From a bacterium (lineage in GTDB: Bacteria; Gemmatimonadota; Gemmatimonadetes; Gemmatimonadales; JACORV01): a stretch of DNA of 33,742 bases. The stretch is taken from contig JAJYLI010000006.1 in NCBI GenBank assembly GCA_021787855.1, positions 1-33,742 of the forward strand, read 5' to 3'. Shown piece by piece: positions 5 through 14,380 of this stretch. Position 1 is the first letter of the stretch. The number at the start of each line of letters is the position of its first letter. The translations under genes and the position numbers were made by a program. The notes beneath the pieces were generated by a model. That model did no database searches. It saw nothing but the letters and a program-made list of their open reading frames with translations, and was not told the DNA's origin.

Positions 5-520
5 ATGATCTACACCATCGGTCACTCGACGCGGCCCATCGAAGAGTTCATCGCGCTGCTCGGGGAGCAGGCCGTGGACCTGGTGGTGGACGTGCGGCGC
101 TTCCCCGGCTCCCGGCGCCATCCGCAGTTCGGGGCCGAGGCGCTGACCGCGGCGCTGGCGGCGGTGGGCGTGACGCGCCGCCACGAGGAGGTGCTGGGTG
201 GGCGGCGGAGCCCGGCGCCCGATTCGCCCAACGGCTACTGGCGACGGGCGCAGTTCCGCGGCTACGCCGACCACCTGGCCACGCCGGAGGCCCGGGCGGC
301 GGTGGAGCGGCTGGTGGAAGAGGGGGCGGCGCACCGGCTGGCGCTGCTGTGCGCGGAGGCGGTGCCGTGGCGTTGCCACCGGCAGCTCGTGGCCGACGCG
401 CTCACCGCGCGCGGGCTGGAGGTGTGGCACATCCTCTCGCGGGGCCGCCTGGAGCGCCATGTCCTGAACCCCGCGGCGCGGCCCGGGGGCGACGGGGTGC
501 TGGTCTATCCGGCGCCGTGA
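5..520 (+). CDS. DUF488 family protein
   Basis: This 171-residue protein has the hallmarks of the DUF488 family: the N-terminal MIYTIGHSTR, the VVDVRRFPGS strand-loop, and a C-terminal Cys-rich signature LLCAEAVPWRCHR followed by a helix. The molecular function of the family is not established; the conserved Cys/His/Arg residues suggest a small catalytic or nucleic-acid related domain. The ATG lies 4 bases inside the window, so an upstream start cannot be excluded. It converges on the winged-helix regulator gene, with a GC palindrome between the two stops. Confidence 0.88.
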   Translation: MIYTIGHSTRPIEEFIALLGEQAVDLVVDVRRFPGSRRHPQFGAEALTAALAAVGVTRRHEEVLGGRRSPAPDSPNGYWRRAQFRGYADHLATPEARAAVERLVEEGAAHRLALLCAEAVPWRCHRQLVADALTARGLEVWHILSRGRLERHVLNPAARPGGDGVLVYPAP

Positions 521-10791: not shown

Positions 10792-11769
10792 TCACTCGTA
10801 GTAGTTCCTCTCCCACCCGTGCTCCTTGAGCTCGTGCAGGAGCCCTGGCGAGAGCTTGCGTCCATCGCTGACGGCGCAATTGGCGCGCGCGTGCGTGGCC
10901 GTCCGCATCCCCGCGATCACGGTCCCCACGGCCGGGTGGCTCAGGCAGAAGCGCAGCGCGCCCTCGGCCAGGGTGTCGGCTTCCCTGAGCAGCACCGGCC
11001 GCAGCCGCTCGACCCGGCGCGCGACCTCCGCCGGCCGGTCGTCCCGGAAGTAGCGCTGGCGCCAGTCGCCGGGCGGGAAGGCCACGCCCGGCTTGATCGC
11101 GCCGGTGAGCCCGCCCTCGTCGAACGGCACCCGCACGATCACGCCCACGTTCCGCTCCCGGCACGCGGGCAGCAGCGCGCGCTCCGGCGACTGGTCGAAG
11201 ATGTTGTAGATCACCTGCAGCGTCTCGATCAGGTCGCAGTGCCGCACCGCCTCGAGCGCGCTGGCGGGATCGTGCTCCGTGTTCGAGATCCCCACGTGGC
11301 GCACGACCCCGCGCTGGATCAGGCCGCCCAGGACGCGCTCGACCTTCTTCCACTCGGGCTCGTTCAGCCACTCGTCGCGCCACACGTGGAACTGCAGGAT
11401 GTCCACCGGCCGGCCGAGGTTGGCCGCGCTGGTCTCGGCCGAACGCGCGACGTAGTCCGCGGAGAACACCTGCGCGAGGGTCGTGCCCGGCAGCGCGGGC
11501 CACACCCGGTCGGCCGGCGGGATCTTGGTGGCCACCACGATCTTCTCGCGGCGCAACGCGACCGCTCGGCCCACCAGCCGCTCGCTGTGCCCGTCGCCGT
11601 ACGCGAGCGCGGTGTCCACGAGAGTGACACCCAGGTCGAAGGCCGCGTGCAGGGCCGCCAGGGCCGCGTCGTCGTCGCCGCCCTGCCACATCGCGCCGCC
11701 GATCCCCCAGGCCCCGAACCCGATTTCCGACACTGTGTAGCCAGTGCGTCCAAGCGGTCGTGCGATCAT
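10792..11769 (-). CDS. Aldo/keto reductase
   Basis: This 325-residue TIM-barrel NAD(P)H oxidoreductase has the catalytic tetrad of the family: Asp52 and Tyr57 (LVDTALAYGDGHSE), Lys82 (IVVATKI) and His128 (VDILQFHVW). The N-terminus MIARPLGRTGYTVSEIGFGA is characteristic of the bacterial AKR group acting on aldehydes or sugars. ATG 11769 has a strong GAGGAG ribosome-binding site seven bases upstream; the in-frame extension to 11868 is not coding-like. The gene diverges from the 6S-like RNA. The substrate cannot be inferred. Confidence 0.92.
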   Translation of the reverse strand: MIARPLGRTGYTVSEIGFGAWGIGGAMWQGGDDDAALAALHAAFDLGVTLVDTALAYGDGHSERLVGRAVALRREKIVVATKIPPADRVWPALPGTTLAQVFSADYVARSAETSAANLGRPVDILQFHVWRDEWLNEPEWKKVERVLGGLIQRGVVRHVGISNTEHDPASALEAVRHCDLIETLQVIYNIFDQSPERALLPACRERNVGVIVRVPFDEGGLTGAIKPGVAFPPGDWRQRYFRDDRPAEVARRVERLRPVLLREADTLAEGALRFCLSHPAVGTVIAGMRTATHARANCAVSDGRKLSPGLLHELKEHGWERNYYE

Positions 11770-11802: not shown

Positions 11803-11831
11803 TTGACACCCCGGCACAGGAATCCTAGCTT
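11803..11831 (+). promoter_or_regulatory. Promoter of the 6S-like RNA
   Basis: TTGACA (11803-11808), an exact 17-base spacer and TAGCTT (11826-11831) predict +1 at about 11838. No open reading frame of normal composition follows; a long stem-forming sequence and a terminator do. This is one of the best -35/spacing matches in the window. Confidence 0.7.
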
Positions 11832-11837
11832 GGCTGC

Positions 11838-12036
11838 AGACGATCCGGAAATGGAGCGGAGAGACCAATTATTGAGCCAACAGGTCCGATGGTGGTCCCA
11901 TATACGCCGGTGGACGACAGGCCCCTTCGGTGGGGTAGCCGGAAGCCGATGCGCGGGGCCAGGGGTTACGATTCGGGCTTCAATAATCCTCTTCGCTCCC
12001 TTCCTTACGCCCCGGGTTCACGCCCGGGGCGATTTG
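11838..12036 (+). ncRNA. ssrS: Structured RNA gene, probable 6S RNA (ssrS-like)
   Basis: Seen: a promoter, a roughly 200-nt non-coding unit and an intrinsic terminator. Its ends pair as a long closing stem: 11853-11858 with 11994-11999, 11859-11863 with 11989-11993, 11868-11875 with 11980-11987, and 11876-11878 with 11976-11978. That is about 22 pairs, broken by a small internal loop and one bulge. Next comes an open region of about 15 nt on each side (11879-11893 and 11961-11975), then a stem 11894-11899/11955-11960 and an inner hairpin (11922-11925 with 11932-11935). A closing stem, symmetric central bubble and terminal arm are the architecture of 6S RNA, which binds housekeeping RNA polymerase as an open-promoter mimic. 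The 3' bubble strand AGGGGTTACGA recalls the AGGGTTACAG of E. coli 6S. The family call is by eye. Confidence 0.55.
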
Positions 12037-12040
12037 CTTC
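12008..12040 (+). terminator. Intrinsic terminator of the 6S-like RNA
   Basis: A perfect 9-pair stem (cgccccggg at 12008-12016, cccggggcg at 12023-12031) with a 6-base loop is followed by ATTTGCTT. The tail is T-rich only on the plus strand, so it ends the RNA. The stop codon of the convergent antiporter gene (12018-12020) lies in the loop. Confidence 0.72.
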
Positions 12041-13217
12041 CCCTGCCCTCGCGCAGCACGGCCAGGAACACGCGCGGGGCCTCGAGCGGCCGCCACCCCG
12101 CCGCCGCCGCGACGACCATGCCCGACGCCCAGGCCAGATAGACCAGGGCGACCGGCTCCCGCGTGCCTGGCCAGCCGAACTGCACCAGCCACAGCACGAA
12201 CAGGCCCGCGGCTTCCCACCAGTCGAAGCGCATCTCCATCAGCAGCAGCATCGCCACCAGCGACTGCGCGAGGGTGAGCGCGATCTCGAGCTGCTGCTTG
12301 GCGTCGAAGTGGAACGCGATCCAGCCGCCGCCGGCCGCCGCGTGGGACCAGCCGTACACCAGCGGGATCATCGCCGCGAGGATGGTCCACTGGTTGATGT
12401 TGCTGGAGACCATGTTCATCAGCGCCATGGGCGCCTTGTCCACGCGCCGGGCCCAGTAGAACGCGGACACCTTTTCCGGGAACTCGGAGAGGAACGGCGC
12501 CACCCACTGCACGAACACGAAGTCGGACACGCCCAGCACGGCGGCGATGCCGAGCATGGAGTCGAGGAACGGGCGCGCGGTGAGCCACAGCAGCGCGCCC
12601 CCGGCGAGAAACAGGCCGGCGACGGCCGCGACGCGCCGCCGGCCGCCGAGGTTGTAGGCCCAGCGCGAGACGCGGGGCGCGTCGGCCACCTCCTCCTCCG
12701 CGTGCGGGGGAACCCGGAGCAGCGCCCACAGGTACGCGAGGTAGAGGGCGGCCAGCACCGCCGCGTCCGCGGCGGAGATGGAGCGCTTGAGCAGGATGAC
12801 CAGGAAGTACACCAGGGGAGGCAGCAGGCCCATCACCTCGATGGCGTGCTCGCGCTCGAGCGTGATGGCGGGGAGCCGGCCGTTCCGGCGGCGCCCGACG
12901 AACGCGGCCACGAAGTAGATCATGGGCCACGCGACGCCCACCAGCAGCCGGATGGCCCCGGTGAGGTTGGCGACGGCGAGGTGCGCGCGGCCGGGGTCGC
13001 GCCCCGCCTCCCAGGCGATGACGGCCTCCACCGCGAACTCGGGCAGCGTCTGCAGCCAGGCCAGCGCGGCCAGGGCGAGGCCCTGCGAGATGAGGAACTG
13101 CGCCGCCTCCGCCCCCCAGGCCACCAGGAAGGCGGAGAGCAGCATCGCCGGGAATGTCCACAGCGCGGACAGGGCCGCCGCCCCCGCGGCGGCGGCCCAC
13201 GTCAGGGCGGCGCTCAC
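12018..13217 (-). CDS. Sodium/calcium exchanger family (CaCA) membrane antiporter
   Basis: This 399-residue protein with about ten to eleven hydrophobic helices carries the two inverted alpha-repeats of the family. Alpha-1 is LQTLPEFAVEAVIAWEAG with ANLTGAIRLLVG; alpha-2 is FLSEFPEKVSAFYWA with MVSSNINQWT. The acidic residue in each repeat (the E of LPEF and of SEFPEK) is where cation is bound in CaCA exchangers. A charged central loop (PPHAEEEVADAPRVSR) separates the halves. The start is GTG; no clear promoter or Shine-Dalgarno was seen, so the exact N-terminus is uncertain. Its last codons lie inside the terminator of the convergent 6S-like RNA. Confidence 0.87.
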   Translation of the reverse strand: MSAALTWAAAAGAAALSALWTFPAMLLSAFLVAWGAEAAQFLISQGLALAALAWLQTLPEFAVEAVIAWEAGRDPGRAHLAVANLTGAIRLLVGVAWPMIYFVAAFVGRRRNGRLPAITLEREHAIEVMGLLPPLVYFLVILLKRSISAADAAVLAALYLAYLWALLRVPPHAEEEVADAPRVSRWAYNLGGRRRVAAVAGLFLAGGALLWLTARPFLDSMLGIAAVLGVSDFVFVQWVAPFLSEFPEKVSAFYWARRVDKAPMALMNMVSSNINQWTILAAMIPLVYGWSHAAAGGGWIAFHFDAKQQLEIALTLAQSLVAMLLLMEMRFDWWEAAGLFVLWLVQFGWPGTREPVALVYLAWASGMVVAAAAGWRPLEAPRVFLAVLREGRGSKSPRA

Positions 13218-13386: not shown

Positions 13387-13800
13387 ATGCCACAGGTCGT
13401 CGTCACCCGGCGGGCGCACTTCAACGCCGCGCACCGGCTCTTCAACCCGGCGTGGTCGGACGCGGAGAACGCGCGGGTCTTCGGGCCGTGCGCCAACCCG
13501 CACTACCACGGCCACAACTACAACCTGGACGTCTCGGTGGCGGGCGAGGTGGACCCCGAGACCGGCTACGTGGTGGACCTGAGCGTGCTGAAGGGCGTGA
13601 TCGAGGAGCGGGTGCTGAGCCGCCTCGACCACCGCAACCTGAACCTCGACGTGCCCGACTTCGCGCGCACCATTCCCACGGCCGAGAACATCGTGCAGTG
13701 GTGCTGGCGGCAGCTCGCCCCGGCCATCCCGCGGGGGCGGCTCGCCCGCCTGGTGCTGTGGGAGACGGAGCGGAACCTGGTCGAGTACACCGGAGGCTGA
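13387..13800 (+). CDS. 6-pyruvoyl-tetrahydropterin synthase-type enzyme (PTPS/QueD superfamily)
   Basis: This 137-residue enzyme converts 7,8-dihydroneopterin triphosphate. Zinc ligands are His16, His41 and His43 ([14 protein letters not shown]). The catalytic Cys35 sits in C-x5-HGH (CANPHYHGH). That spacing is as in animal PTPS (C-x5-HGH), whereas QueD of E. coli has C-x3-HGH. The surrounding segment ([16 protein letters not shown]) also closely follows the mammalian sequence. I therefore favour 6-pyruvoyl-tetrahydropterin formation over 6-carboxytetrahydropterin (queuosine) formation. It is first in an operon with GTP cyclohydrolase I and an SDR, the other two steps of tetrahydrobiopterin synthesis. 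Confidence 0.88.
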
Positions 13801-13801
13801 C

Positions 13802-14380
13802 GTGGACCTGTCCGAGGTGCCCTACGAGGACCTGGTGGCCGAGACGCTGCGGCGGCTCGGCGAGGATCCCGCGCGGCCGGGGCTGGAGCGGACCCCGCAC
13901 CGGGTCGCGGCCTCGATGCGCTGGCTCACCCGCGGCTACCGGCTCGACGCCCAGAAGGTGCTGCGCGAGGCCATGTTCCCGGTCCCGCACGAGAGCATGG
14001 TGCTGGTGCGCGACATCGAGCTGTACTCGATGTGCGAGCACCACATGCTGCCGTTCTTCGGGAAGGCGCACGTCGCCTACCTGCCCAGCGGCCGCATCGT
14101 CGGCCTGTCGAAGCTGGCCCGCGTGGTGGAGATCTACTCCCGCCGCCTGCAGGTGCAGGAGCGGCTGACCGACCAGATCGCCGAGGCCGTCCAGTGCGCC
14201 CTCGAGCCGGCCGGCGTCGGCGTGGTGATCGAGGCCTATCACCTGTGCATGATGATGCGGGGCGTGGAGAAGCAGCACTCCAAGACCGTGACCTCGGCCC
14301 TGCGGGGCGCGTTCCGCGACGATCCCCGGACCCGGGACGAGTTCCTGCGCCTGGTGAGCGGGCCGTTCGGCTTCGAGTGA
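13802..14380 (+). CDS. folE: GTP cyclohydrolase I
   Basis: This 192-residue enzyme converts GTP to 7,8-dihydroneopterin triphosphate, the common precursor of folate and biopterin. Zinc ligands Cys78 and His81 ([10 protein letters not shown]) and Cys149 ([12 protein letters not shown]) are present, as are [20 protein letters not shown] and the N-terminal [10 protein letters not shown]. The length is typical of the bacterial type IA enzyme. The GTG start is one base after the synthase stop, with GGAGG just upstream (CCGGAGGCTGACGTG). It directly follows the PTPS-type gene, so the product of this enzyme is the substrate of its neighbour. Confidence 0.96.

Follow-up and report, generated by a model that had tools for sequence, protein, structure and literature searches.

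The window analysed here, a stretch of 33,742 nucleotides (contig C67 of the 2.8 Mb draft genome G000 of a Gemmatimonadota bacterium), carries at 11838-12036 a non-coding, transcript-sized unit that a first-pass annotation, made from the sequence alone, had proposed to be a 6S RNA gene. The unit is flanked by two minus-strand genes, one for an aldo/keto reductase (start near 11769) and one for a sodium/calcium exchanger (12018-13217); SbcD/SbcC are encoded upstream. Beyond the exchanger gene, which also lies between the RNA and QueD in many members of the order, are the genes for QueD (13387-13800) and FolE (13802-14380). QueD and/or FolE are found downstream of the RNA on the same strand in most of 30 distant members of the class, and most of these distant members are thus the same gene. 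A covariance model built from 48 diverse sequences of relatives (R1) matches the window at 11846-12007 with 137.8 bits and E 1.8e-33 (E-values of R1, and of model R2 below, are rough), and this is the only significant R1 copy in the host genome, the next best match having an E of 6.2. The features of the unit are collected in Table 1.

Table 1. Features of the predicted 6S RNA gene and of its sister-class counterparts. Positions are those of the window unless a locus is named.
Feature	Position	Strand	Basis or remark
-35 element TTGACA	11803-11808	+	Sequence; 6/6 match; promoter pattern kept in relatives
-10 element TAGCTT	11826-11831	+	Sequence; 3/6 match to TATAAT; position conserved in relatives
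Predicted 6S RNA gene (ssrS), primary transcript to terminator end	11838-12036	+	Promoter, fold, terminator, R1 match
Outer closing stem P1, 5' strand	11853-11863	+	Pairs with 11989-11999
Inner stem P2, 5' strand ATTATTGAGCC	11868-11878	+	Pairs with 11976-11987; aligned to 6S consensus CuGAgCC
Predicted product-RNA (pRNA) template	11868-11881	-	Start opposite C11881, 5'-GUUGGCUCAAUAAU; predicted from the alignment of GAGCCAAC to GAGCCGAU of E. coli and to B. subtilis 6S-1
Central bubble, 5' side (putative promoter mimic, template side)	11879-11892	+	Unpaired in open conformer and wide consensus
Apical arm	11893-11961	+	Fold and wide consensus
Best-conserved part of arm, GGCCCC-loop-GGGGTAGC	11920-11939	+	Consensus ATGCCCC...GGGGAAGGC; aligned to 6S GCaaGCC...GGGAAgC
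Central bubble, 3' side	11962-11975	+	Open conformer, wide consensus
Inner stem P2, 3' strand GGCTTCAATAAT	11976-11987	+	Aligned to 6S consensus GGuUCaAg
Outer closing stem P1, 3' strand	11989-11999	+	Fold, covariation
Intrinsic terminator hairpin, 10 pairs	12008-12031	+	Fold; short tail ATTTGCTT
Sister-class 6S RNAs (predicted)	L149, L150, L151, L152, around 1501-1680	- (L150)	RF00013, 30-42.8 bits

An own housekeeping promoter and an intrinsic terminator are expected of a 6S gene, and both are present here. The -35 and -10 elements are separated by 17 bp; the first-pass annotation had called them a consensus promoter, and its elements and spacing stand, but the word is a little strong for a -10 element that agrees with TATAAT at three of six positions. 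Since the -10 element is this weak, the promoter scored under the cut-off of a sigma-70 scan of the window and was not reported by it. The pattern TTGA[CT]-16..18-TAnnnT nevertheless lies upstream of 80 of 93 distinct homologous loci, where shuffled sequences lead one to expect 0.36. A terminator-like hairpin occurs at the corresponding place in 63/93 relatives (9 expected), and in the window it has one pair more than the nine given earlier. The stop of the exchanger gene (12018, minus strand) falls within this hairpin, which may therefore terminate transcription from both directions. In two loci of family f8 (L167 and L168) the stretches that immediately flank the RNA (AAAGACCCC ... GGGGTCTTT) look complementary when 50 bases on each side are viewed, so the closing stem itself may act as a terminator there.

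The minimum free energy (MFE) structure of the RNA joins its two ends by 11 + 8 + 3 = 22 pairs (11853-11863/11989-11999, 11868-11875/11980-11987 and 11876-11878/11976-11978), as the first-pass annotation had estimated, and the fold of all 199 nt is better than that of 198 out of 200 shuffles (z -2.76). The terminal arm that had been foreseen is found in both the fold and the wide consensus. The open region, put earlier at about 15 nt per side, is indeed symmetric (14+14 nt), but the MFE structure pairs across part of it, at -63.6 versus -62.8 kcal/mol for the fully open form, a gap of just 0.8 kcal/mol. Closing stem, open bubble and apical arm are all contained in one RNA of about 160-200 nt, the arrangement by which 6S RNAs are recognised.

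The locus is a conserved RNA and not a chance fold. It was found by blastn in 22 of 41 relatives, and a DNA pattern derived from it, when run against 84,980 species genomes, returned 90 stretches, nearly all of them labelled Gemmatimonadetes, Gemmatimonadales, Gemmatimonadaceae, Gemmatimonadota or Gemmatimonas, with a few titles that give no phylum; on this ground the host is placed in the Gemmatimonadota. Pattern matches in three proteobacteria (L056, L073, L122) were discarded as chance, R1 having found nothing significant in these three genomes. Across 200 Gemmatimonadota genomes R1 located the RNA in 190, which represent 86 of 92 genera, and a genome nearly always has a single copy; five of the ten negative genomes belong to a sister class, four of these having an RF00013-like RNA, and another, G048, holds a diverged candidate (see below). 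Two R1 matches each were obtained in G022 and G178. An identical copy stands at two contig ends of the MAG GZL_ISSM_2_bin.59 (L048:23-135 and L098:5707-5819), and this pair is probably one gene split by the assembly and no duplication.

The first-pass annotation had pointed to covariation in the closing stem of relatives as a check, and the helices do prove to be kept by compensatory change. We aligned 47 sequences, of which 30 represent other parts of the class and were picked up with the model and without the motif. Of the cells, 92.8% were paired as compared to 75.5% in shuffles and 41-58% when the alignment was slid, with two-sided changes in 30 of 35 pairs and none of 500 shuffles as good, figures that should be read with the alignment having been fitted to the model, which favours the modelled structure. 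Two-sided changes affect all eight modelled pairs of P1 (97.1% of cells paired in the wide set) and six of the seven pairs of P2 (96.6%); the GCC/GGC pairs of P2 are present in 45-47 of the 47 sequences, and the CC/GG pairs of the arm are invariant (47/47). From the same 47 rows RNAalifold drew an outer stem of 12 pairs, a small internal loop, an inner stem of 10 pairs, an open bubble and the arm. On closer sets it had proposed a helix GGUCCGA/UCGGGCU, which we rejected as a ground state, only 74.5% of its cells being paired in the wide set. B. subtilis 6S-1 has a central bubble collapse helix (PMC8876501), and GGUCCGA/UCGGGCU may be a release-state helix of this kind.

With the Rfam 6S model RF00013 the window yielded no match, even when the limit was set at E <= 10, bearing out the earlier suspicion that family models might miss the gene, and its gathering score of 46.4 bits was reached in none of 41 genomes in a first search and none of 39 in a second with laxer filters. 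The single match among the 41 relatives is the orthologue in G035, which aligns over the full length of the model (1-187) with 29.1 bits (genome-wide E 8.6e-4); a terminator stands in the corresponding position there, with QueD and FolE following. The Rfam alignment lays CuGAgCCgA on UGAGCCGA, gGGAAgC on GGGGAAGGC and GGuUCaA on GGGCUUCAA. With the laxer filters a further full-length match coincided with the locus that R1 marks in G162 (23.9 bits, E 0.019). One in G161 (E 4.5) lay away from the R1 locus. In G048 the place L154:1478-1645, which directly precedes a tRNA gene (1649-1722), scored 22 bits with RF00013 and 17.3 bits with R1 in a local search, R1 having missed it genome-wide; we regard it as a strongly diverged 6S candidate.

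The sister class provides a bridge to recognised 6S RNAs. There RF00013 matched at full length with 42.8, 42.3, 35.6 and 30.0 bits, and since these scores lie just below 46.4 such RNAs are missed by standard annotation. R1 found nothing in the sister class genome-wide, and in a local search it matched three of the four places (23.9, 21.9 and 21.0 bits; the fourth just 8.9). Reciprocally, the top three matches in 57 kb of a model built from the four sister-class RNAs alone (R2) were window-family RNAs, in L010, L004 and L020. Since neither QueD nor FolE was found near the sister-class loci, the link between them and the window family is one of RNA similarity alone. Homology to recognised 6S RNAs is thus found by way of the G035 orthologue and, in both directions, the sister class; the direct comparison, R1 on E. 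coli ssrS, gave 6.5 bits, not above chance. The better match to another RNA family that had been allowed for did not appear, as the other Rfam families gave only chance-level matches in the window and 18 relatives at E <= 10. SRP RNA, which a GTCAGGCCCC...GGGG hairpin had suggested, was rejected when RF00169 placed the SRP RNA of this genome at G000:C241.

In E. coli 6S RNA the pRNA starts at U44 in GAGCCGAU and has the sequence AUCGGCUCAGGGGACU, and in B. subtilis 6S-1 it starts at C40 and reads GUUCGGUCAAAACU (PMC8876501, PMC12005410). These start sites align with an almost fixed motif in the window family: 103 of 106 loci, most of which came from searches whose pattern already contained the motif, would give the product GUUGGCUCA, and two others (L019 and L137) AUCGGCUCA, the same 9 nt as in E. 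coli. For the lineage of the window the predicted product begins with GUUGGCUCA, and for those of G035 and L019 with AUCGGCUCA. The predicted product starts with a purine at the GAGCCAAC/GAGCCGAT site in all 106, as the sequence of a 6S RNA should have it. Class members found without the motif also have UUGAGCC or UUGGGCC and a pyrimidine at the start, with the exception of L162, which has two extra bases there.

The model matches, the covariation, the RF00013 scores of orthologues and sister class, and the alignment of the pRNA site all support the 6S reading. From this sequence-level evidence we conclude that the locus very probably encodes the 6S RNA (SsrS), in a divergent form, of a bacterium of the Gemmatimonadota, much as had been claimed at first; compensatory changes, the lack of any other Rfam fit and the full-length RF00013 matches on orthologues speak for that claim. 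Given that the predicted product start is almost fixed and sequence conservation is high, the RNA or its product might in this phylum have an extra sequence-specific partner, or the form of RNA polymerase that it binds might differ from that bound by canonical 6S RNA, which we consider unlikely.

The RNA might also be of the Ms1 kind, that is, 6S-shaped, bound to a core RNA polymerase that lacks the primary sigma factor, and working with no pRNA cycle. It shares with Ms1 (scr3559, MTS2823) the overall 6S-like shape, a gene of its own, a phylum-wide occurrence and the failure of sequence searches to find it (PMC9130861), and binding of holoenzyme and of core are indistinguishable from the fold. 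Ms1, however, is marked by a neighbouring HAD-hydrolase gene (PMC9130861) and occurs in Mycobacterium and Streptomyces, whereas the neighbours here encode an aldo/keto reductase, a cation exchanger, QueD and FolE with no HAD hydrolase among them, the host belongs to Gemmatimonadota and not to the actinobacteria, and the conserved blocks, like the place where the pRNA is predicted to start, fit 6S RNA. An actinobacterial Ms1 had been considered initially, in view of the GC content and the neighbouring aldo/keto reductase, and was given up on the Gemmatimonadota relatives and the want of an adjoining HAD hydrolase. Core-polymerase binding has been shown for Ms1 only, host and neighbours set the two RNAs apart, and we hold an Ms1-like RNA to be very improbable.

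A cis-regulatory leader of queD-folE, for example a pterin or folate riboswitch, would fit the fact that most relatives carry QueD and/or FolE on the strand of the RNA, downstream of it. The RNA is not such a leader in the window, because the opposite-strand exchanger gene of 1.2 kb (12018-13217) separates the two; a terminator follows the RNA, no riboswitch family matched, and co-transcription with queD-folE is not indicated by the gene arrangement, so that we find a leader scarcely credible. That the phylum has a new housekeeping RNA which is unrelated to 6S RNA and resembles it by chance, as the lack of an RF00013 score in the window itself and the non-significant E. coli comparison might suggest, has next to no probability in our estimate, given that the best RF00013 matches in class genomes sit on the R1 locus (G035, G162), that the sister-class bridge holds in both directions (R1, R2) and that the host's SRP RNA is elsewhere.

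6S RNA, a small RNA shaped like an open promoter, switches RNA polymerase off and on, and so acts as a global transcription switch. If the locus is a 6S gene, we infer the following from the known 6S RNAs. Transcription would start near 11838 from the housekeeping-sigma promoter and end at the hairpin 12008-12031, and the 22-pair double stem, the 14+14-nt bubble and the terminal arm would imitate an open promoter. The RNA would be expected to build up in stationary phase. When nutrients are exhausted RNA polymerase holoenzyme would bind the bubble and be kept off DNA; when nucleotides return it would use the RNA as template from C11881 leftwards and make a product of about 9-14 nt, predicted to be GUUGGCUCAAUAAU. 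Its synthesis would open P2, and the RNA would refold, possibly through the cross-bubble pairs of the MFE structure, and release the enzyme.

The RNA has in common with 6S RNAs (RF00013; E. coli SsrS, B. subtilis 6S-1) its length, double closing stem, symmetric bubble and apical arm, its own promoter and terminator, the in-register blocks UGAGCC, GGGAAGC and GGUUCA, and a pyrimidine where the product RNA is predicted to start. It differs in scoring under the family cut-off (the window has no score, two orthologues have 24-29 bits) and in the strong conservation of its sequence within the phylum. The family is linked to queD-folE in most members, whereas E. coli 6S is linked to fau (ygfA). 6S-Flavo (RF01685) is a divergent, lineage-level 6S candidate that needs a model of its own; the present RNA is likewise divergent, of lineage level and in need of its own model, and Rfam searches reported no match to RF01685 in the window or its relatives. 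We found no open-access report that pairs 6S RNA with Gemmatimonas, Gemmatimonadetes or Gemmatimonadota, and prior mention elsewhere is possible.

Thus a whole phylum of bacteria common in soil and water, in which the standard RNA library shows no 6S RNA, has a conserved, mostly single-copy gene that is very probably 6S. The R1 model together with the QueD-FolE neighbourhood is a ready route to its annotation and to a widening of Rfam's 6S family, and cultured Gemmatimonas offers a test of promoter mimicry and product-RNA release in comparison with E. coli and B. subtilis.
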